Shown here piece by piece: positions 6,025 to 61,682 of a stretch of DNA of 64,000 bases (its first letter is position 1; every line of letters starts with the position of its first letter). The notes under the pieces are model-generated. The model had not been told where the DNA came from. It ran no database searches and saw only the letters and a program-made list of their open reading frames with translations. Position numbers and translations under genes: made by a program. This DNA is from Loxodes magnus (taxonomy: Eukaryota > Ciliophora > Karyorelictea > Loxodida > Loxodidae): assembly GCA_946699065.1 (NCBI GenBank), contig CAMPDV010000532.1:1-64000 (forward strand). The letters run 5' to 3'.

Positions 6025-7093
6025 TCAACTCGAAACTCTCTACTTTCTTATCGTATTGTCCCATGCCCCCGATACCAACCATCTATTATCAACACTCAAT
6101 GCTATAGAATTTATTGAACTTGTATGTCCTTACAAAGTCTATATACACTCACCCTTATCAAAGTTCCAGATCTTGATCGTTCTGTCATCAGAACCAGAAA
6201 ATATAACACTTGAATCAACACTTAACTGAATACTTGATACACCACCTGCATGACCTTAAAGAGTACGAATACACTAACCAGATGAGAAGTCCCATATCTT
6301 AATAATCCTGTCATAAGAACCAGATATTATACACCTATTATCCTTAGACACTATCACCGATCAAACTTAGTCTAAATGCCCAGTAAGATTTCGCACAAGC
6401 TGACCAGTCCAGAAATCCCAGATCTTTATAGTTGTATCTTCAGATCCTGATATAATATATCTAGAGTCATAGGAGAGTACTACCGATCTAACTATATCAG
6501 TATGTCCCGTTATAGTTCTTAGGAGAGCACCTGTCTGGAAATTTCAGATCTTTATGGTTGTATCTTCAGATCCTGATATAATATAGCTAGAGTTCGGGGA
6601 GATTACTACCGAGTAAATTGAACCAGTATGTCCCGTTATAGCTCTTAGGAGAGCACCAGTCTATAAGTTTCAGATCTTTATCGTTTTGTCATAAGATCCT
6701 GATACTATACAGCTAGAGTCAGGGGAGATTACTACCGAGTTAACTGTAGAAGTATTTCCTGTTATAATTCTTATGAGAGCACCTGTCTGGAAATTTCAGA
6801 TCTTTATCGAATTTTCAGGATATCCTGAACCTGATACAATTCAATTCAGGTCACTTGATATGGCTACCGATATAACAGGTGAAGTGTCAGTAATGATTTA
6901 GTCTAAAAAATATTAAAGAAATACCTTTACTTTAGTCATAACTGATCTTATTTATTAACTTTTAGTAGCATAAGTTAGGCAGAATTTCATACTTAAAATG
7001 AAGTAGAGATATTTTCCCTAAAGCGTGGCTTCTCGCTCTTAAGAGTTTTCTTAAAAAAATACTTTTAGTAAATTGCTTTTCTTTTTTCTCCAT
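6025..7093 (-). CDS. Seven-blade WD40 repeat protein, copy 1
   Basis: Read with TAA/TAG as Gln, this minus-strand gene encodes one WD40 beta-propeller, a scaffold fold for protein binding; its partner cannot be inferred. It starts at ATG 7,093 ([10 protein letters not shown]). A basic N-terminal region of about 55 residues is followed by a 22-nt intron and then seven blades at a strict 126-bp (42-residue) spacing. Blades follow the pattern [27 protein letters not shown] and GHT. The last blade ends KWRVSS and TGA (6,025-6,027). Total length is 1,069 bp; without the intron it is 349 codons. Several blade tryptophans are TGA, for example KI-TGA-N and V-TGA-SV, where other copies or blades have TGG. 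If TGA is a stop, this is a pseudogene with several stops but no frameshift. Expression is not shown. Confidence 0.85.
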
Positions 7094-15310: not shown

Positions 15311-15330
15311 AGTACAGGGACTGTAAATTT

Positions 15331-15816: not shown

Positions 15817-15829
15817 ATTTATTTTAGTC

Positions 15830-18310
15830 ATAAAATTAAATTATAATATAGATATATTTACTGCTATATATCTTTAATAATCTCTTATCAATATTAATTT
15901 TAACTACTTGACTGTCAATCTATCCTTTATCAAGTTCTTAATCAAGTACAACGTATCTGTTTTAAATTATAGTTTAGAAATTAGTTCTTCTTCAAAAGTT
16001 AAATAATATAAAGTCTCTTAGCTATTTTGAATTAACATTGTAATTTTTTATAAAAGCCTAATTTTCTTCCATTTTATTGATATGTTGTTTAGTAGATGGA
16101 TAATATGGATCTGGATATTTTCTCTTTAATTAATTTATAGAATCTTATTCCAAAGAATTTGCTTGAGTATCCTATTTTAGATTTTATGAATGAGAGTTGT
16201 TGAAAATCTAAAAAGATTATTCACAGAATTTTATGGATAGAAATGTTAAATTGGAAGAAATTTACTACTTTAAAATTTGGCTTATTTCAGATTTTCCATT
16301 AAAGTACATTTTTCTGATGCAACTTTATCAAAAGCTTTTAATTGATTAGTTGCTCATTTAGTTTATCATATTATTTCTAAAGTTTCATGTATTTAGAATC
16401 AATAAAGTCGCACTAGGAAATTTAGTCCAATTGTAGTAGGTCTGTTCCAGTAGCAGTATCTAAAGTAAAGTAACTGTTTGAATTTTTTAATCACTGGATT
16501 AAATTTCAACCTGTGTGTAATCATTCTATAGTTAAGGTTTTTTTGTTTATCTGAAAGCATCTTTAAATTCTTGGATATACTTTTTTTTACAAATCTAATT
16601 AACTTAATATACTTTAATAATCCAATTCTTTAAGTTATAGATTCTATTAAAGATGATTACATAAATCCGATTTCTAAGAATATTTTTTTCTCATTCAAAG
16701 TTTAAAATTTCAAGTTAGCTTTATAATATTTATACTTAATCAGTTACTTTTTAATTTTAAGATTTCAGTTATTAATTATAATTAAAAATATAGTTTAATT
16801 CAAGTTCCATATTAGTTTTTTATTATCAAACTTCTTAAAGTAGTTACCAAATGTGTTGTTATCCAGAAAATTACTATTAGTAGAATGAAAGTTATTATTT
16901 TAAATATTCCTATTTTGAATAAAATAATGATTCTTCAGTTTATGTTTGATCCATTTCTAATTTTATCTATTGCGTTTACGCTTCTTAATTTATAAAAACT
17001 CTATTGTTAGTTTAAGTTCTTTATTCAATACATTTTATTATAAAATCTTTTAAACAGTTATCTCTTTAGAATTATCATAAATTGTTTATACTGATTATTC
17101 GTGAATTCTCATTTACTCTTTGGATTAAAATGAAAACTAATTCCTCTCAAAACTTTATTTAAAAATTTTCTAAAGTAGTAATTAATTATGTTTTACTAAA
17201 GAAAGATATTATTTATAAGTAACATTATCTAATGAAATTGTTCAGTTTAATCTTCTACTTTAAAATTATTAATAGGTTATTTTTTATCTGTTATAATATT
17301 TAATTATTTTTTAAATAGCTTTTCCTAATAATATTATAAGGTAAATTTTAGTAACTATTTTTATTTTTTTGTATTTCTAATTAATTTTATTAATATATGC
17401 TTTATAATATGCTTTTGATGATTCTTAGTTATTTATCAAGGTTTATTTTTCTAGTTCATATTTTGTTTCTGAACTATCTAATTTTTCATTTAATAAAAAG
17501 TTCTTATCTATTAGTCTTTATATATCCTATTTAAGTACTTTTATACCTAAAAAAAATTAAATTTCATTAAACGAATTATTAATTGCTTAATTTTAAATTG
17601 CATTTGTCGGGCCACCATTTTATTATAGTTTTTTTCTTTAATTCTAAAGATCAGATAAATAGTGATACTTTGAATTAACAGAAATAATATTATTGTCTTA
17701 CTTTTAACTGTTTTTATTACATTCAATTTAATCGAATTTGATTACTATTATTCAAAAATAAATCTTAAGTTTATGTACTTTTTTTATATTGTAAAAGGAT
17801 ATTTTTATTTAAATTTAATTCAGATTTGAAAGCTTATCTTAAGAGATCGGAATGCCTTAGATAATATCTTAATTTTTCTAAGATTTTTTGGATGATCTTT
17901 TTGTATATTCGGCGGTAATATTTTAGACGTTTAAACTAGTTTTCTACCTATAGGTTTATTTTTCTTTCAATAGATGCCAAAATTGATGTCCATGATGAAG
18001 AGAATTTCGGTGGAACGCGTAAAAATTTATTTTCTAGTTTTTGACTACAGATATTTAGTAATTTTCTAAATAAATCCATTATTATGTTTACTTATTTGAT
18101 TTGTATCAACTCCTTTTCTTTTATTTGGAGGTTTTTATGCACCTGCCTGTGTTTGATCTATCAGTTTGCAGCTTCTTAATAATCAATTAAAGAAGAGTCA
18201 CTAGTTAAAACTAGTGAATTTTAAGTATTTTCCTTTTTTTTATTTAACCTGGTGCTTATAATGAATAATCATTAAACCACAATTATACAGTTTCTTTTGT
18301 ATACATGTAT
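15830..18310 (-). CDS. Putative coding region of unknown function (arm A)
   Basis: This is the reverse-complement counterpart of 32.26-35.28 kb. The plus strand is T-rich and the minus strand purine-rich. The clearest frame, better preserved in the other arm, runs along the last kilobase of the minus-strand sense and contains segments such as INQLKRKYPDPYFPSTKQHI, LRDLYYLTYEEELISKLQF and TKNLIKDRLTVKQLKLIL. The start is unknown and no domain is recognised. Other frames are also open, so this is a candidate rather than a firm gene model. Confidence 0.35.
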
Positions 18311-18824: not shown

Positions 18825-19640
18825 ATTTATCCATCCCGAAAATCTTCTGTAGTGTAAGACTCAGAGCTAAAAAATAAAAAATAATTGTTTACAATTTCAT
18901 TCTTTACTTTCTTTTCTCTCCTTTTTAATTGAGATCCTGTTCAATTAAGTAAATTCTTATAAAATTTAAAAATTTTATCACTAGTTTTTTCATTTACTTG
19001 AAAAGAAAATCAAATTTAAAAAATTTTAATTCCAAGTAAAAAAATGCATTTTTATCAAAAAAAATAAACAATAAATTTTGTTTTTTATCATTTCAAAAAA
19101 ATTAAACTTATCATCTTTTTTTCTTGAAATAAAAAAGCAACAAAAAATTTGTTAAAATTTTTCAAATCAAATATTTTTCCTTAAAACAAAAATAAGTCTT
19201 TTCATTTTTACAAAATACCATTTTAACAAAAAAGATTTACAAATTCTAATTATACTAACAAATTTTTTTAATTCCTATTTTTTTCAAAAATCTTTTATAT
19301 TTAGAATTTTTTTGAAATTTGATTCCCTTTTAACTTTTTTCATCCCGAAATAAAAAATTTATTACTATTCAGAATTTTTTATCCCGAAATAATTAAATTT
19401 ATTCCGTCCCAGAAATCTTTGGTAGTGTAAAATGCTGAGTAAAAAATTTTTTTTTAATTTTCATGAAATTTAAGCTCTTAAATCTAAAGATAATGATAAA
19501 TAAAAAACTTATTATCAGAAAATTTTATTTTCCAATCGGAAACAATAAATGTTAAACATAAAATTTAAAATTTATAATAATAATTAATAATAATAAATAA
19601 TAATTAATAATAATTAATAATTAATAATAATTAATAATCA
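18825..19640. repeat. A-tract modules plus (AAT)n microsatellite, copy 2
   Basis: Same arrangement as at 4.78-5.5 kb: one module near 18,835, one near 19,385-19,440, the TTTTCCAATCGGAAA inverted repeat near 19,530, and an AAT/TAA microsatellite at about 19,575-19,640. It lies downstream of WD40 copy 2. Confidence 0.75.
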
Positions 19641-20132
19641 ATAATAAATATCAAAAAAAAAAAAAAAAAATTTAATTTAAAATAAATAAAATACTTAATT
19701 AAATTTTTTAAATTATAATCAAGATTATTAACTAACTTTAACCTTATAAATAATATTTTGACTACTTCACAAAAAAAATGAAAATTTTTACTTAACTTGA
19801 AATGTTTACAAAATCTAAAAATAAATCTATAAAAAATTTATAGAATAAAATTAAACTTATACTTATTATACGTCTTCATTTAACAAAATTATATTTTAAA
19901 TATTTTTAAACATTACCACTTTAAATCACATACCTCACTAATTTCTATAACCTATATTACTCAACCTTTTTTTAAACCAATAATATTTAAGAATATAACA
20001 AATTTTAAATAAATATAAAACAAATACTTCATAAAACAAAAAACATTATTAACATAAAACATTCATTTAAATGCATTACCAATATCTTATATCTTTAATC
20101 GTAAAATTTAATTAAGTCAAATAGCAAGTTAC

Positions 20133-21204
20133 TCAACTCGAAACTCTCCACTTTCTTATCGTCTTGTCATATCCTCCCGATACCAACCATCTATTATCAA
20201 CACTCAATGCTATAGAATATATTAATCCTGTATGCCCTTACAAAGTCTATATACACTCACCCTTATCAAAGTTCCAGATCTTGATTGTTCTGTCATAAGA
20301 ACCAGAAAAGACAACACTTGAATCAACACTTAACTGAATACTACTTACACCATCCGTATGACCTTAAAGAGTACGAATACACTAACCAGAAGAGAAGTCC
20401 CATATCTTAATAGTACTGTCATAAGAACCAGATATTATATACCTATTATCCTTAGACACTATCACCGATCAAACAAAACCTGAATGCCCAGTAAGAGTTC
20501 GCACAAGCTGACCAGTCTAGAAATCCCAGATCTTTATGGTTGTATCAGAAGATCCCGATATAATATATCTAGAGTCATAGGAGAGTACTACCGATCTAAC
20601 TATATCAGTATGTCCCGTTATAGTTCTTAGGAGAGCACCTGTCTGGAAATTTCAGATCTTTATAGTTTAGTCAGAAGATCCTTATACTATATAGCTAGAG
20701 TCTGGGGAGATTACTACCGAGGTAATAGGAGAATTATGCCCCGTTATAGTTCTTATGAGAGCACCAGTCTATGAATTTCAGATCTTTATAGTATCGTCAC
20801 CAGATCCTGATACTATATAGCTAGAGTTTTGGGAGATTACTACCGATCAAATAGTAGAAGTATACCCCGTTATAGTTCTTAGGAGAGCACCTGTCTGAAA
20901 ATTCCAGATCTTTATCGATTTTTCAGGATATCCTGAACCTGATACAATTCAATTCAGGTCACTTGATATGGCTACTGAGTAAACAACTTAAGTGTGACCA
21001 GTAAGGACTTAGTCTAAAAAATATTAAAGAAATACCTTTACTTTAGTCATAACTGATCTTATTTATTAACTTTTAGTAGCATAAGTTAGGCAGAATTTCA
21101 TACTTAAAATGAAGTAGAGATATTTTCCCCAGGATGTGGCTTCTCGCTCTTAGGAGTTTTCTTAAAAAAATACTTTTAGTAAATTGCTTTTCTTTTTTCT
21201 CCAT
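20133..21204 (-). CDS. Seven-blade WD40 repeat protein, copy 2
   Basis: A second intact-length copy of the WD40 gene, from ATG 21,204 to TGA 20,133-20,135. It is 1,072 bp, three bases longer than copy 1 because of an in-frame difference just after the intron. Seven blades lie at 126-bp spacing. The first-blade tryptophan is TGG here (near 20,917) but TGA in copies 1 and 4. The position before SV in the first strand of two blades is TGA (as in TI-TGA-SVV and FV-TGA-SVI), where other blades carry TGG. The glycine-rich turn of the last blade reads HTGLIYSI here. It is intact only if TGA is sense; otherwise it is a stop-riddled pseudogene with an uninterrupted frame. Confidence 0.85.
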
Positions 21205-24200
21205 TTTAATTTTTATAACTTATTCCAATAAATATTTAATTTAAATAACTCAATAAATTTTACTTACTTCATTTCAATACAATTAAACAATTAAATTATT
21301 TATTAAGCATACTTATAAATATCTAATTTCTTAAACATTAATTTCTCTATTTTTGTCTTAAAACAATGCAAGATATTAAACTAATAGAATACAAGCTTTT
21401 ACAATTTTAATTATTTTATATCTTTTTACTTTTAAATAAAAGGATAAATTATTATTCAAAAGTTTATAAAGAAGAATTATATCTTTATTATAATAACTTT
21501 AATATGCATTTATTAGTTACTATTTATTTGTGCTTTAAATCAAAGACTCTTAATAAGAAAACCTTATTTCTTTATAGACCCTTTTAAATGATAAATAAAA
21601 TTTTACAATTCTTTTAAATCTACTGTTATTAATTATTGTTTTTCACTTACATTTAATAAAAAAAAATGATTTCTTTAAGCTTTTTACTAATTAAAAAAAA
21701 TGAAATAAAATAAGTTTCTTATTAATTAGCTTAAATAAATATTTAAAAGCATCAAATTATTTAAAACAAAGCATTTTTAGAATCTATAAGATAAACTCTT
21801 TTATTTATCCACTTTCTTACTACTATTTCATTAAAACCTTTTATTTATAAAGGTCTCTCTTAAAATAATAAAATAATATAATTACTTTTAATGTTGATTC
21901 TAAGTAAGTTAAATAAATGTAATAAATAAAAGTAGTAGAAAGTAAATATTTAAACTAACTAGAAATGGTGTATCACTAATTTTATCTTACAATTATTAAA
22001 TAGTAATATTTATTATTAAAACAAGCTTTAATATGTTTAATTATGTCTATTAAATACTTAATATTTTATCCTTTTAGCTTTATTAGTTATTAATTTAATT
22101 TCTTTTTAATAAAGATATTAGATTAGTTATAATTAATAAATTTAGATAACTTTCTCTTTTTATAGCAAACTAATATTTATTATTTATGTTATTTTTGTAA
22201 TTATCATTTCTAATTAATAATACCTAAATTATTCTAGATTATTTAAACATAAAAACTTAATTCTATTATTCTATACTTATCCAAAAAATATAGCTACCAC
22301 TATTAATACTTTCTTTCTTAAAATAAGTTATTTGCTATTAAGAAAATTATAAGTTTTTTTAAGAAAGAAATAATATTTTTAATATATTCTATTATTATTT
22401 TCTGAATTAATAGAAAGAATAAATTTAAAATAATATGTTTGTTTGTAGTATGAGATAATATAAGTATTAGATTAGCAATATAAGTTATTTAAAACTAATC
22501 TAACAGATTATTATTTACTCTTAATATATTTTATTAGTCTACTATTATTCTATATCTTACTGTTCCTAATAAACAATTCTCTATGTTTTGCTTTATAGCA
22601 TATCACCATTTATTAATCTTATTACAAAAGACTTAAACCTAAAAAGAAATATAGATAATTATAGAATTATTTTAAACTTAGGCATTAAAATAAGTTTGAT
22701 TTTTAGATTATTTATAATTTTCCTAAATTTAAATTATATTTATATATTCCTTTTTTTTAACTATCTTTTCTAATTAACTTTCGTTTGCTGACAAAAAGAT
22801 ACATTTTGTAAAATATTTAGTCTTAATTTATCTAAGTTTATTTTAGTGAGTATAAGAATATATTAAATTTAAAGTATTAATGATACTAGTTCTATAAAAC
22901 ATTTAGGTAATTATATGTACTAAAATAAATAGTAAAGAGAAAACATTATTCTTTTATATAATTAAATAAAGAAAAGCTAGCTTAAATCTTCTATAGAGTC
23001 AATTATTCATATATCTAAAATCCTCTATTTATCTTAAAATACAGTGTTTAATATATTATAGCCTCCTTCACTAACTCACTTAGTAATATTAATTCATAAA
23101 AACTTAAAAGAAAATTCCTTTTTACTTTATCTTTACTTGGAAATATTCTAAATACTTTAACTAGTTAAAGATAGGTTTAACTAGAGACTAATAAGAAATT
23201 TTATTATCCTTGATAAAATAATTAATAAAACTGTGATTGCATTTCTTATTAATGAAGAATAATATTTTAAATTAAAATAAGGAAAATTAATATTTTTCTA
23301 TAAAAAATGAATATAAAATTTACTAATGATTTAATTGAAACTATCAACTTCTATTAAATTATTTAAAAATATTACTAAAAGAAAAATAAAGTATAAATTA
23401 ATTAATTTAAAAAACTAAAAAAAATTCTAATTTAAAATTTTATATTTAGCAATATTTGTGATAAAGATAAATATTAAAGAATAAAAATTTTACAAATATA
23501 GCATTGATTGATCTTTTAAATAGAGGGGTTCAACATAAAAATAATTATTCTTAGTAATTTTCAGTTTCAAAATATAAAAAATTAAAAATGTTAAAAAATC
23601 CTCAAACTCACAGTTTTCTTATAATCAGCCTATTCGAAGATACTTTATTTTTACTATTTTTCATCCTTTATGAATGTATATTGTGTTAAAATTACTAATT
23701 TTTTTATTAGTTTCAAATTTTAAACTTCTGCTTAAGTGGAAACTTTTCAATATTTGAATAAATAAATAAAATTATTTAATTTTTATTTTCTAAACTTAAT
23801 ATTAAATTCAGCTTTATTTTTAAAAATTATTTGATTTTATTTAAATATTAGAATTCTAATTTTATATATTAAGTAAAGTAGCAAAATTAATTAAAATTTT
23901 GAATTAAAATCATATTTATTTTTTAATTTTATTGATTAAAATATGTCTATAAATAAAAAAATATGAAACTAGGAGTGTTTTTTATTAAAAGGAGAGTTAA
24001 AGATTGTCCAAGAACAATAGATATACAAATAAAAGATAATTTGAATATTATTCTTGCTTATTTAAAATTTAATATTATTTAAATATTTTAATCTAAAATA
24101 AAAATTTCTGGTAATTAAATTGTATAAAACTAACTCATTTATAATTACAAATTATAAGCGAAAAATAATATAATTATAATAATACTATTTATAATTTATT

Positions 24201-29573: not shown

Positions 29574-30642
29574 ATGGAGAAAAAAGAAAAGCAATTTACT
29601 AAAAGTATTTTTTTAAGAAAACTCCTAAGAGCGAGAAGCCACATCCTGGGGAAAATATCTCTACTTCATTTTAAGTATGAAATTCTGCCTAACTTATGCT
29701 ACTAAAAGTTAATAAATAAGATTAGTTATGACCAAAGTAAAGGTATTTCTTTAATATTTTTTAGACTAAATCATTACTGACACTTCACCTGTTTTATCGG
29801 TAGCCATATCAAGTGACCTGAATTGAATTGTATCAGGTTCAGGAATTCCTGAATTTTCGATAAAGATCTGGAATTTTCAGACAGGTGCTCTCCTAAGAGC
29901 TATAACAGGACATACTGATTATGTTAACTCGGTAGTAATCTCCCCTGACTCTAGCTGTATAGTATCAGGATCTTATGACAAAACGATAAAGATCTGAAAC
30001 TTATAGACTGGTGCTCTCCTAAGAGCTATAACGGGACATACTGGTTCAATTTACTCGGTAGTAATCTCCCCAGACTCTAGCTATATAGTATAAGGATCTT
30101 CTGACTAAACTATAAAGATCTGAAATTTCCAGACAGGTGCTCTCATAAGAACTATAACGGAACATACTGACTATGTTATATCTGTAGTAATCTCCTATGA
30201 CTCTAGATATATTATATCAGGATCTGAAGATACAACTATAAAGATTTGGAATTTCTAGACTGGTCAGCTTGTGCGAACTCTTACTGGGCATCCAGACTTT
30301 GTTTTATCGGTAATAGTGTCTAAGGATAATAGGTATATAATATCAGGTTCGGATGACAGGACTTTTAAGATATGGGACTTCTCTTCTGGTTAGTATATTC
30401 GTACTCTTCAAGGTCATACAGGTGGTGTATCAAGTATTCAGTTAAGTGTTGATTCAAGTGTTATATTTACTGGTTCTTATGACAGAACAATCAAGATCTG
30501 GAACTTTGATAAGGGTGAGTGTATCTAGACTTTGTAAGGGCATACAGGATGAATATCTTCTATAGCATTGAGTGTTGATAATAGATGGTTGGTATCGGGA
30601 GGATATGACAAGACGATAAGAAAGTGGAGAGTTTCGAGTTGA
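29574..30642 (+). CDS. Seven-blade WD40 repeat protein, copy 3
   Basis: Plus-strand copy and the easiest to read. ATG 29,574 opens [19 protein letters not shown], continuing through [21 protein letters not shown] 22-nt intron lies at 29,743-29,764. Seven blades at 126-bp spacing follow, ending KWRVSS and TGA (30,640-30,642). Length is 1,069 bp, the same as copy 1 (349 codons without the intron). The blades carry [20 protein letters not shown] and TGH signatures. TGA stands at DLN-TGA-IVSGS, at two KI-TGA-N sites and at HTG-TGA-ISSI; TGG is used in the other blade tryptophans. It is likely cytosolic, since no signal peptide or membrane segment is seen. The binding partner is unknown. Confidence 0.88.
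29743..29764 (+). other. 22-nt intron in WD40 copy 3
   Basis: GTATTTC...TTTTAG. Removing it joins the N-terminal frame (...SYDQSK) to the propeller frame ([10 protein letters not shown]...) in phase. An alternative donor six bases upstream (GTAAAG) gives a 28-nt intron and also keeps the frame. The same sequence is present at this place in the other four copies. Confidence 0.75.
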
Positions 30643-32261: not shown

Positions 32262-35200
32262 ACGTTAATGAATGTATACAAAAGAAACTGTATAATTGTG
32301 GTTTAATGATTATTCATTATAAGCACCAATTTAAAGTAAAAAAATGGAAAATTTTCTTTTCAAAATTAAGATATTATCTAAGACACTCCGATCTCTTAAG
32401 ATAAGCTTTCAAATCTGAATTAAAATTTAAATAAAAATATCCTTTTACAATAGTCAAAAAGTACATAAACTTAAGATTTATTTTTGAATAACAGTAATCA
32501 AATTCGATTAAATTGAATGTAATAAAAACAGTTAAAAGTAAGACAATAATATTATTTCTGTTAATTCAAAGTATCACTATTTATCTGATCTTTAGAATTA
32601 AAATAAACAACTATAATAAAATGGTGGCCCGATAAAAGCAATTCAAAATTAAGCAATTAATAATTCGTTTAATGAAATTTAATTTTTTTTAGGTATAAAA
32701 GTACTTAAATAGGATATATAAAGACTAATAGATAAGAACTTTTTATTAAATTAAAAATTAGATAGTACAGAAACAAAATATGAACTAGAAAAATAAACCT
32801 TGATAAATAACTAAGAATCATCAAAAGCATATTATAAAGCATATATTAATAAAATTAATTAGAAAACAAAAAAATAAAAATAGTTACTAAAATTTACCTT
32901 ATAATATTATATAAAATGGCACCTAAGAAATAATAGACCTCTATTAACGAATACTTGAAAAAATAAGAATAACCTAATTTAATTGAAGAATAGTCTTAAT
33001 AAGATAAAGATTAATAATCTAAGGAATCCTTTGCATAATCAGTTCAGCAAAGGATATCAAATATTCAATATGACTTGTAAAAGCAAAGATAAAAAATAGA
33101 AAATTTAGAAAACTTACTAGAAAAATTAATGGAATAATTAAACCTATAATTCCCATCCATAGATGAATCATTAAATAAAATCTAATCGTAAATAGTAATT
33201 AAATTGGAATAAATTGATAAATAATTTAACGAAGTCCCTCAAATGTTCCAATTTAATTTTTCTTAAATTGAATATCAAATAAAGCAACTTTAAGAAAAAC
33301 AAGAATAATAACAAGTAATAATTTAAAAATTATAAGATTAATAAGATTAATAATCAAATATCCCAATGGAAATCGAATCGGAATTCTAATAATAAGAAAT
33401 AAATAAGATCAATTATTATCGCAAAAAGATTCGGTGCTATTTATGCTAGAAAAATCATTGCTGGAAAAAATGCTGGAAGAAACAAGAAATTGAAAAAATT
33501 AACAAGTAATAAATATTAGACTAACTTTTCAGAATATGACCAACAAGAACAGGATAAGTATACAGAAAGAAATTCTACAACTCAAGAAACAACGAGGTTT
33601 ATAAAAATGGAAGAAGAAACTATAACGATAATTAGTGGATGAGGGAAAGACAAGGATGGCGGACTAATGTAGTCCTACGCAGTCCTTTAGTTCAGGAAAG
33701 AGCAGGAACAAAAACAAGTGAACCCTGGAGTTCTTTTCTAAGACTATAAACTTAATTTTTTTTTTTATTAGGAAAAGCTATTTAAAAAATAATTAAATAT
33801 TATAACAGATAAAAATAACCTATTAATAATTTTAAAGTAGAAGATTAAACTGAACAATTTCATTAGATAATGTTACTTATAAATAATATCTTTCTTTAGT
33901 AAAACATAATTAATTACTACTTTAGAAAATTTTTCAATAAAGATTTGAGAGGAATTAGTTTTCATTTTAATCCAAAGAGTAAATAAGAATTCACGAATAA
34001 TCAGTATAAACAACTTATGCTAATTCTAAAGAGATAACTGTTTAAACAGATTTTATAATAAAATGTATTGAATAAAGAACTTAAACTAACAATAGAGTTT
34101 TTATAAATTAAGAAGCGTAAACGCAATAGATAAAATTAGAAATGGATCAAACATAAACTGAAGAATCATTATTATATTCAAAATAAGAATATTTAAAATA
34201 ATAACTTTCATTCTACTAATAGTAATTTTCTGGATAACAACACATTTGGTAACTACTTTAAGAAGTTTGATAATAAAAAACTAATATGGAACTTGAATTA
34301 AACTATATTTTTAATTATAATTAATAACTAAAATCTTAAAATTAAAAAATAACTGATTAAGTATAAATATTATAAAGCTAACTTGAAATTTTTAACTTTG
34401 AATAAAAAAAGAAATATTCTTAGAAATCGGATTTATGTAATAATCTTTAATAGAATCTATAGCTTAAAGAATTTGATTATTAAAGCATATTAAGTTAATT
34501 ACATTTGTAAAAAAATAAGTATATCCAAGAATTTAAAGATGCTTTCACATAAACAAAAATACCTTAACTATAGAATGATTACACACAGGTTGAAATTTAA
34601 TCCAGTGATTAAAAAATTCAAACAATTATTTTGACTTTAGATACGTCTACTGGAACAGACCTACTACATTTGGATTAAATTTCCTAGTGCGACTTTATTG
34701 ATTCTAAATACATAAAATTGTAGAAATAATATGATAAACTAATTGAGCAACTAATCAATTAAAAGCTTTTGATAAAGTTGCACCAGAAAAATATACTTTA
34801 ATGGAAAATCTGAAATAGAGCCAAATTTTAAAGCAGTAAATTTCTTCCAATTTAACATTTCTATTCATAAAGATCTGTGAATAATCTTTTTAGATTTTCA
34901 ACAACTCTCATTCATAAAATCTAAAATAGGATACTTAAGAAATTCTTTGGAATAAGATTCTATAAATTAATTAAAGAGAAAATATCCAGATCCATATTTT
35001 CCATCTACTAAATAACATATCAATAAAATGGAACAAAATTAGGCTTTTATAAAAAATTACAATGTTAATTCAAAATAGCTAAGAGACTTATATTATCTAA
35101 CTTATGAAGAAGAACTAATTTCTAAACTATAATTTAAAACAGATACGTTGTACTTGACTAAGAACTTGATAAAGGATAGATTGACAGTCAAGTAGTTAAA

Positions 35201-35275
35201 ATTAATATTGATAAGAGATTACTAAAGATATATAACAGAAAATATCTCTATATTATAATTTAATTTTATGACTAA
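32262..35275 (+). CDS. Putative coding region of unknown function (arm B)
   Basis: Plus-strand counterpart of 15.83-18.31 kb, interrupted by the ORF1 element at 32.9-33.77 kb. A frame over about 34.57-35.27 kb reads fluently: AVNFFQFNISIHKDL, LKRKYPDPYFPSTKQHINKM, LRDLYYLTYEEELISKLQFK and LTVKQLKLILIRDYQRYI. Three or so TGA codons fall within it. Start and function are unknown. If the interrupted copy were a gene, the insertion would split it; arm A keeps the uninterrupted form. Confidence 0.35.
32916..33755 (+). CDS. ORF1-type protein with coiled coil and CCHC zinc knuckle (N1)
   Basis: One frame from ATG 32,916 (MAPKKQQTSINEYLKKQEQ) with TAR as Gln. The middle is strongly coiled-coil and Q-rich (NLENLLEKLMEQL, LEQIDKQFNEV, IEYQIKQLQEKQEQQQ). 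A zinc knuckle C-YL-C-QKN-H-CWKK-C lies at 33,435-33,473; the spacing CX2CX3HX4C is one shorter than the usual CCHC box. A basic tail follows (VYRKKFYNSRNNEVYKNG). This is the domain order of LINE ORF1 or Gag-like nucleic-acid chaperones. One internal TGA (FRI-TGA-PTRTG) aligns with TGA in N2 and with Tyr in N3. The end is uncertain; in-frame TAA codons at 33,747 and 33,753 are the last before the T-run. Confidence 0.75.
33659..33680 (+). other. Bulged stem-loop in N1 3' region
   Basis: GCG-GACT-AATGT-AGTC-CTA-CGC: an outer 3-bp stem, a 4-bp inner stem, a five-base loop and a CTA bulge. N3 has the same layout with different stem bases at 62,865-62,888. Confidence 0.55.
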
Positions 35276-36815
35276 AATAAATAACATTAAAAAAATACGT
35301 TCATCTTGAAATGAGGGGACAAAAAAAGAAATTTTAATTTATGAACCTGAGCTCTTAACTAAATCAACAAGGAAAAAAAATTATTTTAGATCAAGATAAT
35401 CACTAAAAAAGAAGTAGCGTCAATCAAATTAAGATTGGATATGTCAACATAAATGGAATAGCAAGTAAACTATATGCAGTAGAATAAGTCATAAGAGAAA
35501 ATAGTATTGACATTTTTTCAATTAATGAAACTTGGTAAAAAAAATATTTCCTTCCAATATTAATATAAGGTTAAAGGACTTACTACAAAAATTCAGGAAA
35601 AGGAGGAGGTGTATGTCTAGTTATTAAAGAAGAGCTCAGTAGTACTGAAGAAACTAATATAATTGATGTATCCTAGAATCGATTTATCATAGCCAAACTA
35701 GATAATATATTTATTGCGATCAGTTACATGCCAGATAATAGCTAAAATGAGAACATAAAAGACCAAGCATATGACTATATTAATTTGCTACTTAATCGAT
35801 TCCAAAATAACCCACATATTCTAATGGGAGATTTCAATGCTCCTTTATAAGATTATGGAGATAATCCTAATAATGACTATGATGATACAAACAGATTCTA
35901 GGAACTTCTTATTCAGAAGTATCTTGAAATAGTAAATAATATGAACAGCAACATTTGAATACATAAAGGAACAGATTTTATGTATTGCAATGACTATATT
36001 GTAATAAACAATCATCTGAATATTAATCAATTTGAAAACTTCTAGGCTCATTATAACTAACTATTTACTAATCACATACCAATTACGGTAAATTTTCTCT
36101 TCAACACAATTCTCTATTAGGACATAATTACCTAAAGAAAATATAAAATTAGCAGGCTACAAGACCCTATTGACAGATAAAAATATTAAGAATCTATTTT
36201 TGAAACTTACAATTAATTTTTTTAATCCGATAGGAATAATTTAGAGGATTAATACTCATGTATTAAAGGGAATATATAATATAATGCAGATGTAATATTA
36301 GGTTCATTTATTCCAGACCCTAAATATAATAAACTTACAAAAGACCTCATAGAGAAGTATATTGAAGTTAAAAGAGCTAATCAAGTATATAAAGAAACTC
36401 ACGCGTAGTTTGGAAGAATTAATTAATAAGTAATTCCCTTTTTAAGAACAATTGGTAAGAAGGATATTAATATAGAGATTAAGTAACAAGACTATCTGAA
36501 TTTTACGAAATAGATATTAATAATTAGGAATATAATAGTAGCTTTAATACTTTTACAAAATATATTAAAAGTAAGATTCAACATAAATTTTATGAAGTAA
36601 CTATTAAAAGACTTAAAAGGAGGCCCACTGCAAAGTTATTTATAGAATAATTAGAATAATAATAATAATTCCCGTAAATTACCTATCCAATACTAAATAA
36701 ATAGTATCGAAAAGAAATAATTAGTATATACAAACTCAGAACCTAAAGTTACAACTTTCACAAGGATCTTTAAGACAGACATTATTTAGTTGAGAATTCC
36801 CATTGTATGTGTTTT
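35276..36815 (+). mobile_element. LINE with endonuclease but RT domain deleted
   Basis: The element begins directly at the end of inverted-repeat arm B. It carries an APE-type endonuclease and the post-endonuclease linker. Near 36,450-36,480 it jumps to sequence homologous to the C-terminal part of the RT ORF at 0.6-1.1 kb, such as RLSEFYEIDINN and FTKYIKSKIQHKFY, ending near QSYNFHKDLQDRHY and an H-C-M-C that matches the start of the Cys motif. The whole RT palm is missing, so it is non-autonomous. Confidence 0.8.
35311..36450 (+). CDS. LINE ORF2 N-terminal part: APE-like endonuclease
   Basis: A frame from ATG 35,311, TAR as Gln, gives a recognisable exonuclease-endonuclease-phosphatase domain that nicks target DNA for target-primed reverse transcription. 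Visible motifs in order: IGYVNINGIASK (N), SINETW (catalytic E), GGGVCLVIK, ISYMPDN (Y-P), ILMGDFNAPL (D and N), KGTDFMYCNDYIV (IDYI-like) and TNHIP (SDH-like, with T-N for S-D). All expected active-site blocks are present. One TGA at 35,956-35,958 (SNI-TGA-IHKGTDF) stands where APE-type LINEs often have Trp before this block. A linker with LGSFIPDPKYNKL, shared with the LINE at 2.9 kb, follows. The frame then runs into a deletion junction. Confidence 0.85.
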
Positions 36816-39000
36816 ATAATTGAATTTAAAAGTCTTTTTACCATAATGTGATTGAAAGATAACCAGTTTAAATATATGAAACATAACTTATTAATGTTGA
36901 AGTTGCTGCTTAAAATGCTTTCTTTAAATCATTCTCATACTTGATTCAATTCTATTCAAAACTCCAATTATTCCTTTCTGAATACACCATGGTACTACCT
37001 CTACTCCATATTCTGCTTTAGGTAGTGTAAAAAATCTGCATAAAGTTTTAAAATGTCAAGAAATCACATTCTTATATCTAATTAGTTGAATACTAGCTTT
37101 TTTCATTGCAGCTAAATACTTGATCGCGACTTCTCTACAATCAGGATTATAATTCTTCTTCTGATGTAGCATTACATCTAAATATGTTACTTTTTCCTTT
37201 TAAATAATTGGTTAATTATCTAATCATAAATTTAAATTTTATTATTTATAATGTTCTTTCAAATTTAGATACATTCAGATTTGATAACATTGATCTTTAA
37301 GTACGTTTATGTAAAAATGCTTACTTGTTTCATTTATTAACTCCTTCATATACTTTGCAGTTTTGGAAAGAAGAATCAGATCATCTGCTCATCGTCTGCA
37401 TGCGAAGTTAATATTCCAACCCTGGCATTTGAATTCCAAATAGGTACTTTTACTTTCCAAATATCTAATTACTATGTCATAATATAACAATGCTAAAATG
37501 GTCCATGCGAACTTCCTTACGTAACTCTATTGTTGTATTATAATGTTCTGGTGTTCTTTCCATCTATTTTAAATGAAGAATTTAGGTTTTTGTAAAACAA
37601 ATCTAAGGCTTTTATTAGTCAAAATGGTAATTTAACTCTCTTAAATTGATCTAATAAAAGTCTTCTCTTTATTGAGTCAAACATTTTTTAAACATCTATC
37701 AGTGTTGCTATCAATTTAGTCTTACTTTTAGCACTTTTCCGATAGTTATCAATTATTTGTTATATTATTCAAATTTATTAAGTTGTTTATCTGATTTTTA
37801 TAAATCCCATTTATGAAGGGTGAATCAAATTTCTCTAATAAAGCAGATTGTATAGTCTTTTTGTTAAAGCTTTATCATATAGTTTTATAATAATATTAAT
37901 AAGAGAAATAGTTAGTCAATTTTTCCAGTCATCTTTATTTCCTTTTTTAAATATTGGAATTACCAACAATGTATTTAATTCCTAAGGGATTCTTCCAAAT
38001 CTTAACATATTATTCAGAAAAGAGTGAAGAATTATTAACAAATATTATCCGACATATTTCAGAAGTTTACTTTTTATTCAAGCTGAAACAGCTGCTTTTC
38101 CATTCGTAATTTCTTTTATAATCTGTTGTATTTCTTGTATGGTAAAAAGATAAAATCCTTATAAATATGAGAGTTGATATTCTTTAATTTCTTAAATACT
38201 ATCTTATATTTTATCTATTTTTTAATTACTAAGATTTATTTATTATTTAGTTAGATTAGAATGCTTTTTAAAAATAAATTCTTTCATGACTCAATGGATT
38301 TATTTTTGATTTCTTAATTAAAATTCATTTAATTTATTTTTTTAGGGTTTTGAATTTTTTAGTATGTGAAAATATTTCTTTAGAATCTCCATTTAGAAGT
38401 AAAAGTTTCTTTTTTGCTTTGTTTTTTCAAACTTTCACAAATTATACTTGAAGTCTTTCCAAAGTAGTTTCGCTGTTTCATGAAGATTAAATACTTATTA
38501 TTTTATTCTTCCAGATATAATGTGTGCTTCTTTATATACTGAGTTAGCCCTTTTAAACCTACATATTTCTTAGCAAGATCTCGAGAAAATTTGTTATAAC
38601 TTGATTCTGGAATAAAGGATCCTAATGTTTAATCAGCATTGTATTAGATGTTATTTTTGATAAATTCATATTAAACTTAAAGATTATCTTAATCTATCTA
38701 AAAGAATTCTAGATAAGTTTGCACGAAATATTCTAAATATTTTTGACGATTTATTGCTTCTTATAACTTATTTATTTTATATTTCCTCAAATTCTTGCAC
38801 ATCTTTAATTAATCTCATATAAAATTAAGTTTTGTTTTATAAATCAATTTGAAGAAAAAATTTTCTTTTTAAGCTATAATATCACCCTATTACTTTTTAT
38901 CTTATAAAAGAATTGTTTTAAGAATTAAGTTTTTATCTTTAAATAATCTAGCAATTTTTCAGCTTTTTTCAGACATTATGAATAAATATAATTACAATCT
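36816..39000 (-). pseudogene. LINE reverse transcriptase fragment, copy 2
   Basis: Paralogue of 1,145-3,300, on the minus strand. It shows LAKKYVGLKGLTQYIKKH, FTIQEIQQIIKEITNGKAA, VIPIFKKGNKDDWKN-TGA-LTISL (usual NWRPISL/NYRPISL block), a motif A LIDVQKMFDSIKRR (about 37,700), motif B VTQGSSHGPF (about 37,510) and motif C ADDLILLSK (37,375-37,390). The C-terminal Cys motif of copy 1 is cut off at the junction with the plus-strand LINE near 36,815. Motifs B and C are in different frames, so it is dead. TGA codons occur at NWRPIS, LPF-TGA-LIKAL, TTQQI-TGA-II and before ADD. Confidence 0.8.
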
Positions 39001-40459
39001 TTAAAATATCAATCAAATAGATAAATAAGCAAAAAATAATAACTATTTAATTATAAAATTAATATAGAAACATTTTAATTTAAATTCTTTATAAGATATT
39101 TTAAATTTAAATAAGTTCTTAATCTTTTAAAAATCATATTAAATAAAGCATTTTAAATGTTTTTATGCTTATGAATATTTAGTATCTTAAATTAATAAAA
39201 TACTATATTATATAATAAATCAAACATTTATTAAAGGAATGCTTAAATTATAAATTATAAATTATAATTTAGCTATCTAATAGATTAGAATAAAACAAAA
39301 ATAGCTCATTTTTAAGGTCATTTATGAAATTGTGTATTATTCGCTTTATCATCTTAGAAAAATCTTTGCATTTTTTAATTTTATATATGTTTCTTTTAAT
39401 ACTGTACGAAATATTTCCCATGCTTAATAGATATAATTATAATAGTTATTAACTTACACTTTTTATATGATTTTAATTAATAAAAAAGATTAAAGTTTTT
39501 CTTTTATCCTTTTTTGATATAATGAAAACTATATTGATTTCTTAATTATTTACATTTTCATTTTAGTAATTCGTATTATTTAATATTATAATATAATTTT
39601 ATTCTTATTTTAGATGGAAATATAAGATAATTTACAAGAAAGTGAATATTTTTATTATTTTGCATATATTCAAATTATTTATAAAGTTTCTAGCAAATGT
39701 TTTTTATATTATAAATAGTCAATCGATTTTTTACAAATGTTTCAACTTTAATAAAATAGCTTCATTAGAAATTCAAATTTTAAGATTAATAAATAAAATC
39801 AATTTTCTATATACATAGTAGATATATTCAAGTTGCTTAAAATCAGAAAACTTATCTTTAAAGCCATTCCTTTTAATATTACGAAATGAGAAAAAATTTT
39901 GAAGAGAAAAAATACTTAATATAGCAATTTTTTCTTAAAAACTTATTTTTCTCTTCTAAATTAACATCTTTTCGCAAACTAAAAACAGATAGTTAGTCGT
40001 AGTAAGCTCTTTTAAAAACTCTTTTACTCATCTTTTCGATTTTAAATGCTTTTCTAATTATTATAATAAAGCAGAATATTTTTAAACTTGATTAATAAAT
40101 TTTTGTTTCTATATTTTATATAGTTAGGTTAGATACATTATTAAATCCTTGTTTAATTACTTTTTTTAGATTCTTTGTAAATTGGCCTAAAATTTATTAT
40201 TACAGATGTATTGTACCTCATTTTTTCTATTTGATTGATCATATTTTATAAAGATATTTTTTAGTTCTTTTTGATTAGTTATTTTTAAAAATTCGCAATA
40301 TCTATTAAAAAGTTAGTTTTAAACCCTCTTATAGAAAATTATTTTTTACTAATTTATTTCTTCCTAAAATTTAATTTATTTTCTTATCTTTACTTCTTAA
40401 AATTCATTTAAAAAACTTTTCAAATCTTTTAAAATTCTATGCCTTTAAGAAAAAGATTT

Positions 40460-41760
40460 ATCTATCCCGAAATCTTTTGTAGCGTATAATTCAGAGCGAA
40501 AAAAGGATAATTTTTCACGATTTCATGGTTTATTTTATTATGTCTCCTTTCTTCTAGAGATCTTTTTCATTTAAGTAAATTCTTATAACATTAAAAATTT
40601 TTAAAGCGAATTTTTCATTTACTCGAAAAGAAGTTCAAAATCAAAAATTTTATTCTTTCCAAAGCATAAACAATAAATTATTTTATAATTTCAAAAATAA
40701 TTTACCTTATCAAAAATATATTTTTAAAACAAAAACAAAACAATTTTGTTAAAAATTCTTCAAATCAATTAATTTTTCTAACAAAAAAACGTTTTTATTT
40801 TTACAAAATACCATTTCAACATAAAAGATTTCCAAATTCTATTTTGAATATAAAAATTTTTTTATTCCTATTTTTTTCTCAAAAATCTTTTATATTTGGA
40901 ATTTTTTCTTGAAATTTTATTCCTTTTTAGGATTTTTTATCCAAAATCAAAAAATTTATTCCGTCCCAGAAATCTTTGGTAGTAAAAACGCTGAGTAAAA
41001 AAACAAATTTTTTGTTTTCATGAAATTTAAGCTCTAAAATTGAAAGATTATGATAAATAAAAAACTTAATTCAAGAAAATTTTATTTTCCAATCGAAAAC
41101 GAAACATGTTAAACATTAAAATTAAAATTTATTATTGAACTTAAACACAAGAATAAACATATTTAAATATATTTATTAACATATAACTTAAAAAATTAAA
41201 TTATCGTCCCAAAATTCAAAATTTTTTTAGTTTTAATTCTATTAAAAAAAATCCCCTTTTTTACATATTAAAAAAAAATTTCTTCCTTGAAATATTTATG
41301 AAAAAAAGTTTTCAAAAAAAATTCAAAGATTTTTAAAATTAATTTCCATATTTTTCATCCAAAACGATTTTAGATAACTATTTTCAAAATTATTATAGAA
41401 ACGCTTTTCTAAGAAATGTTAAAAACTTTTTAAAAACTACTTTCAAAATTTGTATTCAAATTTTAAATTTTTTTATTCCGAAATAAAAAAATTCATTCCT
41501 ATTTAGATTTATTTATCCCGAAATAATTAAATTTTATCCGTTCCAAAAATCTTTGGTAGTGTAAAACGCTGAGCAAAAAACAAATTTTTCATGTTCATGA
41601 AATCCATACTCTAAAATTCTAAAATAAAAACTTACCATCAGAAAAATTAATTTTCCAATCGGAAACGAAACATATTAAACATAAAAATTAAAAGTTAATA
41701 ATTATAATAAACACTAATAATTAATTATAATTAATAATAATAATTAATATTAAATATCAA
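40460..41760. repeat. A-tract modules (three) plus microsatellite, copy 4
   Basis: Modules begin near 40,463, 40,955 and 41,515; the third is extra compared with other copies. The TTTTCCAATCG(G)AAA inverted repeat is present twice (about 41,085 and 41,653), suggesting tandem duplication of the second module. An AAT/TAA microsatellite follows (about 41,695-41,750). Confidence 0.75.
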
Positions 41761-42289
41761 TCATAAAAAATAAATAATAAAAAACAAATAATAAAAAAAC
41801 AAAATAAAAAAAAATTAAATTTAAAATAAAATAAAATGAATAAAATACTTAATTAAATTTTTTAATTAATAATTAATAATCAAAATTATAAACTAACTTT
41901 AACCTTATAAATAATATTTTAACTACTTCACAAAAAAAAAAATTTATACTCAACTTGAAATTTTTACAAAATCAAAAATAAATCTATAAAATTTTATCGA
42001 AAAAAATAAAACTTAAACTTATTATACGTCTTTATTTAACAAAATTATATTTTTAATATTTTAAACATTACCACTTTAAATCAACATACCTCACTAATTT
42101 CTATAACCTATATTGCTCAACCTTTTTTTTAAACCAATAATATTTAAGAATATAACAAATTTTAAATAAATATAAAGCAAACACTTCATAAAACTACAAA
42201 CATAATTACCATTCAAAATTCATTTAAATGCATAACCAATATCTTATATCTTTAATCGTAAAATTAAATTAAGTCAAATCATAAGTTTC

Positions 42290-43361
42290 TCAACTCGAAA
42301 TCCTCCACTTTCTTATCGTAAAGTCCCATCCTCCCGATACCAACCATCTATTATCAACACTCAATGTTATAGAAGATATTCATCCTGTATGCCCTTACAA
42401 AGTCTAGATACACTCACCCTTATCAAAGTTCCATATCTTGATTTTTCCGTCATAAGAACCAGAAAAGACAACACTTGAATCAACACTTAACTGAATACTA
42501 CGTACACCATCCGTATGACCTTGAAGTGTACGAATACACTAACCAGAAGAGAAGTCCCATATCTTAATAGTCTTGTCCCGAGAACCAGATATTATACACC
42601 TATTATCCTTAGACATTATCACCGATCAAACTTAGTCTAAATGCCCAGTAAGAGCTCGCACAAGCTGACCAGTCCAGAAATCCCAGATCTTTATAGTTGT
42701 ATCACCAGATGCCGATATAATATATCTAGAGTCAGGGGAGATTACAACCGATAAAACTGTAGAAGTATGTCCCGACAAAGTTCTTATGAGAGCACCATTG
42801 TGGAAATTTCAGATCTTTATGGTTTTGTCACCAGATGCCGATATAATATATTTAGAGTCTGGGGAGATTACTACCGATAAAACTGTAGAAGTATGTCCCG
42901 TTAAAGTTCTTATGAGAGCACCAGTCTACGAATTTCAGATCTTTATAGTTTTGTCATCAGATCCTGATACGATATAGCTAGAGTCTGGGGAGATTACTAC
43001 CGAGTTAACATAATCAGTATGTCCTGTTAAAGTTCTTTGGAGAGAACCAGTCTACAAGTTTCAAATCTTTATTGAATATTCAGGCTATCCTGAACCTGAT
43101 ATAATTCAATTCAGGTCACTTGATGTGGCTACCGACCAAACACGTGAAGTATGACCAGTAAGGACTTAGTCTAAATAATATTAAAGAAATACCTTTACTT
43201 TGGTCATAACTGATCTTATTTATTAACTTTTAGTAGCATAAGTTAGGCAGAATTTCATACTTAAAATGAAGTAGAGATATTTTCCCTAAAGTGTAGCTTC
43301 TCGCTCTTAAGAGTTTTCTTAAAAAAATACTTTTAGTAAATTGCTTTTCTTTTTTCTCCAT
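42290..43361 (-). CDS. Seven-blade WD40 repeat protein, copy 4
   Basis: ATG 43,361 to TGA 42,290-42,292, 1,072 bp as in copy 2, with the same intron and seven blades. The first blade's pre-SV position is TGG (as in SRVWSVA), while its KIW tryptophan is TGA. The next two blades also have KI-TGA-N. The last blade ends KWRISS and TGA. The C-terminal four blades use TGG throughout their KIW sites. No frameshift is present across the blades despite substitutions relative to the other copies. Confidence 0.85.
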
Positions 43362-45549
43362 TTTAATTTTTATAACTTACTTCAATAAATATTTAATTAA
43401 AATAACTCAATAAATTTTACTGACTTAATTTCAATAAAATTATTTATTAAGCATACTTATAAATATCTCATTTCTTAAACATTGATTTTTCTATTTTTGT
43501 CTTAAAACAAGACAAGATATTAAACTAATAGTACATGCTTTTAAAATTTTAATTATTTTATTTCTTTTTACTTTTAAATAAAGGATCAATTATTATATCA
43601 AAAGTTTATAAAGAAGAATTATATCTTTATTATAATAACTTTAATATGCATTTATTAGTTACTATTCATTTGTGTTTTAAATCAAAGACTCTTAATAAGA
43701 AAACCTTATTTCTTTATAGACCCTTATAAATGATAAATAAATATTACAATTCTTTTAAAAACTATTGCTATTAATTATTGTTTTTCACTTACATTTAATC
43801 AAAAAAATTATTTCTTTAAGCTTTTAACTAATTAAAAAATATGAAATAAAGTAAGTTTCTTATTAATTAGTTTGTATAAATATTAAAAAACATCAAATTA
43901 TTTATAAAAAAATATTTTTAGAATTTATAAGATAAAATCTTTTAATTGCCCACTTTCTTACTACTATTTCATTAAAACTTTTCATTTATAAAGGTCTCTC
44001 TTATAATAATAAAATAATATAATTACTTTTAATGTTGATTCTAAGCAAAATATATAAATGTAATAAATATAAGTAGTAGAAAGTAAATATTTAAACTAAC
44101 TAGAAAGGGTGTATCGCTAATTTTATCTTACAATTATTAAATAGTAATATTTAATTTATTATTAAAATAAGCTTTAATATGTTTAATTATGTCTATTAAA
44201 ATACTTAAAATTTTATCCTTTTAGCTTTATTAGTTATTAATTTAAATTTTTTCTCTTTAATTAATAAAGATATTAGATTAGTTATAATTAATACATTTAG
44301 ATAACTTTCTCTTTTTATAGCAAACTAATATTTATTATTTATGTTATTTTTGTAATTATCATTTCTAATTAATAATACCTAAATTATTCTAAATTATTTA
44401 AACATAAAAACTTAATTCTATTATTCTATACTTATCCAAAAAATATAGTTTCCACTATTAATACTCTCTTTCTTAAAATTAGTTGTTTTATATTAAGAAA
44501 ATTATAAGCTTTTTTAAGAAAGAAAGCATATTTTTAATATATTCTATTATTATTTTCTGAATTAATAGAAAGAGTAAACTTAAAATAATATGTTTGTTTG
44601 TAGTATGAGATAATATAAGTATTAGATTAGCAATATAAGTTATTTAAAACTAATCTAACAGATTATTATTTACTCTTAATACATTTTATTAGTCTACTAT
44701 TATTCTATATCTTACTGTTCCTAATAAACAATTCATCATGTTTTGCTTTATAACATATCATCATTTATTAATATTATTACAAAAGATTTAAACATAAAAA
44801 GATGATATAGATAGTTATAGAATTATTTGAAACTTAGGCATCAAAATAAGTTTGAATTTTAGATTATTTATAATTTTCCTAAATTTAAATTATATTTATA
44901 TAACTTTTTATTAACTATCTTTTGTAATTAACTTTCGTTTGCTGACAAAAAGATACATTTTGTAAAATATTTAGTCTTAATTTATCTAAGTTTATTTTAG
45001 TGAGTATAAGAATATATTAAATTTAAAGTATTAATGATACTAGTTCTATAAAACATTTAGGTAATTATATATACTAAAATAAATAGTAAAGAGAAAACAT
45101 TATTCTTTTATATAATTAAATAAAGAAAAGCTAGCTTAAATCTTCAATAGAGTCAATTATTCATATATCTAAAATCCTCTATTTATCTTAAAATCAAGTG
45201 TTTAATATATTATAGCCTCCTTTACTAACTCATTTAGTAATATTAACTCATAAAAACTTAAAAGAAAATTCCTTTTTACTTTAACTGTACTTGGAAATAT
45301 TCTAAGTACTTTAACTAGTTAAAGATAGGTTTAATTAGAGATTAATAAGAAATTTTCTTATCCTCTAGATAAAATATTTAATAAAACTGTGATTGCATTT
45401 CCTATTAATGAAGAATAATATTTTAAATTAAAATAAGAAAAATTAATATTTTTATGTTTAATAAATATTTAAAATAGTTTATATAAAATCTCTTAATATT
45501 TTATAAAAAACCAAAGTAAACGCAAAATAATTAATTAAACATAAAAAAA

Positions 45550-52560: not shown

Positions 52561-52565
52561 TTTAA

Positions 52566-60598: not shown

Positions 60599-61682
60599 AT
60601 GGAGAAAAAAGAAAAGCAATTTACTAAAAGTATTTTTTTAAGAAAACTCTTAAGAGCGAGAAGCCACACTTTAGGGAAAATATCTCTACTTCATTTTAAG
60701 TATGAAATTCTGCCCAACTTATGCTACTAAAAGTTAATAAATAAGATCAGTTATGACCAAAGTAAAGGTATTTCTTTAATATTTTTTAGACTAAGTCATT
60801 ACTAACACTTCACGTGCTTGGTCGGTAGCCATATCAAGGGATCTAAATTGAATTGTATCAGGTTCAGCATTTCCTGAAAATTCGATAAAGATCTGGAATT
60901 TCCAGACAGGTACTCTCCAAAGAACTATAACAGGACATAATTCTCATGTTTGATCGGTAGTAATCTCCCCTGACTCTAGCTATATTGTATCGGGATCTTC
61001 TGACTAAACCATAAAGATCTGAAACTTATAGACTGGTGCTCTCATAAGATCTATAACGGGGCATATTTCTACAGTTAGGCCAGTAGTAATCTCCCCTGAC
61101 TCTAATTTTATCGTATCAGGATATGATGACACTACTATAAAGATCTGAAATTTCCTCAATGGTGATCTCCAAAGAACTATAACGGGACATACTGATATAG
61201 TTAGATCGGTAGTACCCTCCTATGACTCTAGATATGTTATATCGGGATCTTCTGATACAACTATAAAGATCTGGGATTTCTAGACTGGTCAGCTTGTGCG
61301 AAATCTTACTGGGCATTTAGGTTTTGTTTGATCGGTGATAGTGTCTAAGGATAATAGGTATATAATATCTGGTTCTTATGACAAGACTATTAAGATATGG
61401 GACTTCTCTTCTGGTTAGTGTATTCGTACTCTTTAAGGTCATACAGGTGTTGTAACAAGTATTCAGTTAAGTGTTGATTCAAGTGTTATATTTTCTGGTT
61501 CATGGGATAAAACAATCAAGATATGGAGCTTTGATAAGGGTGAGTGTATATAGACTTTGTAAGGGCATAAAGATGATATAAATTCTATAGCATTGAGTGT
61601 TGATAATAGATGGTTGGTATCGGGAGGATGGGACTAGACGATAAGAAAGTGGAGGATTTCGGTTGAGTAACTCGCTATTTGA
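60599..61682 (+). CDS. Seven-blade WD40 repeat protein, copy 5
   Basis: ATG 60,599, the same 22-nt intron, and seven blades whose KIW/KW sites fall at exactly 126-bp intervals (about 60,894 to 61,652). It is the most diverged copy but has no indel across the propeller. One base is missing after the last blade, so the C-terminus reads RISVEQLAI before TGA at 61,680-61,682 instead of RVSS-TGA. TGG is used in SRAWSVA, in the first blade KIW and in SGSWDKT; TGA in HV-TGA-SVV, FV-TGA-SVI and two KI-TGA-N sites. The antisense standard-code frame at 61,116-61,316 is a shadow. Confidence 0.85.

Follow-up and report, generated by a model that had tools for sequence, protein, structure and literature searches.

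A hypervariable WD40 gene family and the karyorelict genetic code in nuclear DNA of Loxodes magnus

WD40 genes and other features of the window

The window, a stretch of 64,000 nt of L. magnus DNA, is AT-rich (GC 14–29% per 2 kb) and repeat-rich. Five copies of a WD40 gene, located via their shared 5′ end, lie within it together with the endonuclease domain of a retroelement. No tRNA and no Rfam match at gathering score was found within the 64,000 nt, and under the bacterial code the window holds no ORF of 150 aa. The features are as follows:

6025..7093, minus strand: WD40 gene copy 1, 348 aa, 5 internal TGA, 6 TGG, 22-nt intron, terminal TGA (Pfam WD40, 1.6e-68)
20133..21204, minus strand: WD40 gene copy 2, 349 aa, 5 internal TGA, 6 TGG, 22-nt intron, terminal TGA (Pfam WD40, 1.4e-72)
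29574..30642, plus strand: WD40 gene copy 3, 348 aa, ATG at 29574, exon 1 at 29574–29742, exon 2 at 29765–30642, Trp-TGA at 29824, 29995, 30121 and 30550, 6 TGG, stop TGA at 30640–30642 (Pfam WD40, 9.3e-70)
29743..29764, plus strand: intron of copy 3, 22 nt, GT..AG
35446..36012, plus strand: retroelement endonuclease (Exo_endo_phos; Pfam, 6.9e-11), with a TGA three residues before KGTDF
42290..43361, minus strand: WD40 gene copy 4, 349 aa, 6 internal TGA, 8 TGG, 22-nt intron, terminal TGA (Pfam WD40, 6.7e-75)
60599..61682, plus strand: WD40 gene copy 5, 353 aa, 5 internal TGA, 9 TGG, frame change near the 3′ end, termination at a TGA five codons beyond the shared end (Pfam WD40, 3.9e-67)

Each WD40 copy starts with ATGGAGAAAAAAG. 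An intron of 22 nt follows after 169 nt in each of the five, always at the same place, and its length is inside the range published for L. magnus, where introns average 19.3 bp according to excerpts of PMC11441545. The products of 348–353 residues contain seven blades with a spacing of exactly 42 residues in every copy, and with TGA masked as X they match the Pfam WD40 family (PF00400) with E-values of 3.9e-67 to 6.7e-75. Together the five copies contain 25 internal TGA and 35 TGG codons. Reading them with NCBI table 6 or table 11 cuts the genes into pieces, whereas they are intact under table 27.

An initial annotation of the window, made from the sequence alone, had proposed that TGA encodes Trp within genes, for example at the KIW motif of the WD40 blades. 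This was borne out in the window copies, where 34 of the 35 KIW sites carry TGG or TGA (22 TGG, 12 TGA and 1 TAG). The Trp codon of the first blade is TGG in copies 2, 3 and 5 and TGA in copies 1 and 4, exactly as described there, and the terminal TGA right after the last blade is indeed common to four of the five copies, the copy at 60599 ending five codons on at another TGA. At three Trp columns, TGA is common to all five copies. When the gene at 29574 was aligned with the structure 2ymu (TGA masked as X), the Trp of a KLWN motif stood opposite two of the four internal TGAs; the third was opposite Ser at a variable loop position, and the first fell outside the alignments.

Some of the WD40 genes lie inside duplicated units that are ~90–97% identical (5239–9284 with 19354–23301 and 41488–45544). 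Further units of the same identity pair 1144–5457 with 36812–41135 and 9266–15333 with 46371–52566.

Sites outside the WD40 genes had also been put forward as Trp-TGA, and these fared less well. The endonuclease TGA exists, three residues from the KGTDF block and not adjacent to it as had been stated, and the PDB alignment of the endonuclease stops short of the site. The site in a reverse transcriptase at 37.9 kb found no support, with no RVT_1 domain in any frame of 33001–41800 at E ≤ 0.01; of the RT motifs sought, YVDD alone turned up, at 59988 and in a frame that lacks support. For a TGA said to align with TGG in another copy of a zinc knuckle, one weak zinc-knuckle-like TGA was found at ~46081, and its TGG partner was not located. 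A six-frame Pfam search of 11901–16900 and 36800–41800 returned no families, and the gene proposed at 12.0–13.06 kb likewise had no Pfam match. In the retroelement parts, TGA may have arisen by decay. The published macronuclear assembly of L. magnus comprises 706 Mbp, with abundant LINE-like elements that carry Exo_endo_phos_2 and RVT_1 (PMC11441545, in part); the table 27 code, the Exo_endo_phos endonuclease and the 22-nt introns of the window fit that genome.

The WD40 family and selection on its blades

The WD40 family extends far beyond the window. The genome searched has 7,843 contigs with 705,730,643 bases in total. In it, the 30 nt at the 5′ end of the gene recur without mismatch at 716 sites, of which 18 copies were read and some may be alleles, as the assembly is not phased (PMC11441545, in part); the reversed pattern has none. 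The 13 copies from outside the window (L128–L140) come from 13 other contigs and were picked among the best 40 exon-1 matches. All 18 copies have an intron of 21–22 nt. By blade pattern, 17 are in register, while L134 misses one anchor yet ends at the shared TGA. The KIW column of the 17 in-register copies contains 78 TGG, 38 TGA, 2 CGG and 1 TAG (n = 119), counts that are not independent because the copies are related. In four copies (L136, L137, L138 and L139), otherwise intact, ACG replaces the ATG start, which counts against live genes. ACG starts may also be present in 14 of 40 scored exon-1 matches, whose alignment begins at base 3.

Selection on these genes differs between sites. The part encoded by exon 1, 56 residues, is constant, with dN of 0.0064 and dS of 0.098 over the 18 copies. 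Within the blades, amino-acid change is greatest at positions 14, 16, 32 and 34 of 42, both among the five window copies and again among 17 copies. In 16 copies, dN/dS was 2.55 at these four positions (sites chosen from the same data), 0.20 at residues 15 and 33, which lie inside each pair, and 0.40 at the 38 other positions of blades 1–6 (L133 and L134 left out), values that exchange of blades between genes could have inflated. Among 96 blades there are 78 different combinations of the four residues. Blade positions 14 and 16 are hypervariable columns, where a TGA on its own proves nothing about the code.

The substitution rates indicate purifying selection on exon 1 and the blade framework, and since the reading frame is also kept, the WD40 genes are not decayed. 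Raw differences among the five window copies are spread evenly over the three codon positions (352, 357 and 382) and look neutral, yet split by site they point to purifying selection plus four diversifying sites. In nine of ten pairs of window copies, moreover, the 550 bases upstream are more similar than the coding part, as expected if some sites diversify.

TGA at tryptophan columns and its decoding

Protein kinases provide a test of the code in a family unrelated to the WD40 repeats. A search with Pkinase (PF00069) scored 136 domains, and the 90 highest by score, all distinct sequences, were read; domains were thus selected by score, the program's own reading of TGA being unstated, and were aligned with MAFFT with TGA as X. 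They contain 93 in-frame TGA and 127 TGG codons. When the consensus was built without TGA, 67 of the TGAs lay in columns with at least 30 other residues, and at 46 of these Trp is the majority residue; the 26 TGAs outside such columns fall in one thinner column, where the other letters are mostly TGG. The column of the D-x-W-S motif holds 45 TGG, 33 TGA and 12 Phe/Tyr, and two more Trp columns hold 15 TGG, 26 TGA and 7 others, and 32 TGG, 13 TGA and 21 others. These three columns, 204 of 23,026 codons, account for 72 of the 93 TGAs (Fisher 3.6e-134, the columns having been chosen after the alignment was seen), so that the enrichment at conserved Trp columns that the initial annotation had named as a check is present; the other 21 TGAs lie elsewhere. 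Five codons from which a single step could yield TGA never occur in the three columns (AGA 0/683, GGA 0/828, CGA 0/71, TTA 0/776, TCA 0/286), and TAA occurs there in 4 of 436 cases. Decay of TGG, AGA, CGA and GGA, considered as the source of the TGAs, was rejected on these columns. Across the alignment, the column profile of TAA/TAG resembles that of CAA/CAG.

The distribution of TGA also depends on the distance from the stop. In 17 WD40 copies, the last 20 codons before the stop hold 39 TGG and no TGA as Trp codons, compared with 79 TGG and 80 TGA further upstream; the Fisher value of 1e-10 for this difference is overstated, since the copies are related and the near sites represent few columns. 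The direction is that published for L. magnus, in which Trp-UGA, and likewise TAA, is depleted before the stop (PMC11441545, in part). A depletion of TAA was not visible in the WD40 copies, which have too few Gln codons there.

The initial annotation had predicted a tRNA-Trp with the anticodon UCA. A dedicated tRNA of this kind serves in other systems that read UGA as Trp. A search pattern that admits both CCA and UCA and demands one anticodon-arm sequence gave 126 matches in the genome and 2 in a reversed control; with UCA alone it gave no match genome-wide, and CCA genes were present instead. As UCA appeared in none of the 126 matches, a reading of UGA by tRNA-Trp(UCA) is unlikely here, the pattern being one that could miss a strongly diverged gene. 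An Rfam tRNA search of the genome returned only tRNA-Lys and tRNA-Ala among 30 of its 63 matches. Four tRNA-Trp(CCA) genes were read. The anticodon stem has five pairs in two of them (L125 and L126) and 4 bp in the other two (L124 and L127), whose top pair is broken, with A or T opposite C. The 3′ strand of the L124/L127 stem occurs in 98 of the 100 matches listed, a comparison that covers the 3′ strand. Long tandem arrays of tRNA-Trp(CCA) were seen among the matches listed at G000:C67:482321–491198 (spacing ~187 bases) and C148:157298–168941 (~241). According to excerpts of PMC13092985, a tRNA-Trp(CCA) with a 4-bp stem raises UGA readthrough and had already been found in Loxodes.

Two eRF1 genes, L002 and L003, lie 35 kb apart (G000:C196:19713 and 54613). 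Neither has an internal TGA and both end in TGA; more in-frame TGAs follow just after the stop. L002 aligns with a PDB structure of eRF1 over residues 6–432 of 436. In both genes, TAA or TAG stands at the Gln of the GGQ motif, which by itself points to Gln, and together with the kinase profile this upholds the assignment of TAA and TAG to Gln made in the initial annotation. An altered eRF1 had been suggested there as well. Changes are present in both genes, RAQNIKS in place of TASNIKS and Phe in place of the Tyr of YxCxxxF (FxCxxxF), but they carry little weight for the code, because PMC4967479 (in part) found no clear connection between single eRF1 changes and genetic codes.

An aminotransferase-like frame elsewhere (L001) reads GWKIG#CIGP, where # is TGA, at a position that we take to be Trp. 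The gene downstream of it is presumably pelota.

The code of Condylostoma (table 28), in which all three stop codons are sense and all three can terminate, resembles the present case in the sense reading of UAA and UAG and in a UGA that is Trp or stop depending on context. However, Condylostoma also uses UAA and UAG as gene ends (PMC4967479, in part). Here, 16 of the 17 WD40 copies read to their end have TGA at the common terminus behind the last blade, where neither TAA nor TAG was seen, and the 17th has a frame change and a TGA five codons on; with TAA/TAG taken as Gln, TGA was the one codon at which a frame could close. The expected C-terminus of both eRF1 genes also falls at TGA, and the published gene model of L. 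magnus has UGA as its only stop (PMC11441545, in part). Table 28 is therefore very improbable for this genome. Weaker still, and close to negligible, is table 6, in which UGA is stop only and the internal TGAs would be decay in dead repeats: the repeat-rich window, the lack of RVT_1 in 33001–41800, the four of 18 WD40 copies without ATG and the neutral look of the raw codon-position counts speak for it, but the 90 kinase domains place UGA inside functional genes, at Trp columns that the other one-step source codons tested never occupy, and the WD40 copies keep their frame, are under strong purifying selection in exon 1 and, in the window, all share TGA at three of the Trp columns.

The kinase and WD40 Trp columns, the tRNA-Trp genes and the avoidance of TGA near stops all agree with TGA as Trp inside genes and as stop at gene ends, as the initial annotation had it. 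This is the published karyorelict code (table 27, Loxodes and Parduczia) and not a new one. For L. magnus, table 27 assigns UAA and UAG to Gln and UGA to Trp or stop, UGA being the sole stop and also Trp at a sufficient distance from the poly-A tail (PMC11441545, in part). The Gln assignment, the Trp/stop assignment and the depletion of Trp-UGA are the same here, with no difference in the features tested, and the result amounts to a clean rediscovery of that code from raw sequence.

As to mechanism, UGA would be read by tRNA-Trp(CCA), some of it with a 4-bp anticodon stem, which by default would outcompete eRF1 at this codon. Near the mRNA end termination would win, and Trp-UGA would consequently be avoided in that region. 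A model with translation as the default and the transcript end letting eRF1 win is set out in PMC4967479 (in part), and in light of the literature the competition at UGA is likely, as are roles for the tRNA stem and the mRNA end. Taken jointly, it is almost certain that the nuclear DNA of L. magnus is read under table 27, with tRNA-Trp(CCA) and eRF1 probably competing at UGA, and that 29574–30642 is an intact spliced WD40 gene.

Likeness to fungal allorecognition genes

We consider the WD40 locus, for which a recognition role is proposed here by analogy, to be of greater interest than the code. The correct code exposes a very large WD40 family whose variation falls at positions that a fungus uses for allorecognition. 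In the WD40 repeat of Podospora anserina, codons 7, 9, 25 and 27 are under positive selection around the conserved codons 8 and 26, 69 repeats show 55 combinations, and the selected residues lie on the top face of a modelled propeller (PMC1805685, in part). These repeats belong to the WD40 sensors of the HNWD/NWD allorecognition genes, which are also treated in PMC2873952 and PMC4986451 (both in part).

The Loxodes genes resemble HNWD/NWD in having WD40 repeats with high internal conservation. In both, diversifying codons form pairs, each around a conserved residue, and the pairs are 18 codons apart; the spacing is identical and the numbering is offset by seven. However, the Loxodes ORF of 348–353 aa (56 aa from exon 1 plus the propeller) is too short for a NACHT or HET domain, unlike HNWD/NWD. 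Family size differs too, with ten members in Podospora (PMC1805685, in part) compared with 716 exact 5′ matches in the Loxodes genome.

The gene at 29574–30642 could thus be part of a ciliate recognition repertoire: a large family of seven-bladed WD40 proteins that stand alone, combine a constant N-terminus with four diversifying residues per blade at the spacing of a fungal NLR, and lack the NLR body. We offer this as a tentative proposal and hold it to be somewhat less probable than its opposite. The four variable residues per blade would be expected on a binding face and, by analogy with the fungal proteins, the family may act in the recognition of self and non-self, in mating or in the recognition of parasites. 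If real, this would be a convergent recognition repertoire in a ciliate whose somatic nuclei do not divide (PMC11441545, in part). None of the literature matches listed describes a hypervariable WD40 family in a ciliate, no paper was found for Loxodes with WD40, and the main text of PMC11441545 does not contain the term WD40.

A change in repeat number, as in HNWD/NWD, is hinted at by L133. In this copy, seven anchors at the 42-residue spacing precede a further repeat in which the sequence read breaks off, and it therefore appears to be eight-bladed. Two of its adjacent blades are near-identical, a pattern that points to a recent blade duplication or change in repeat number.
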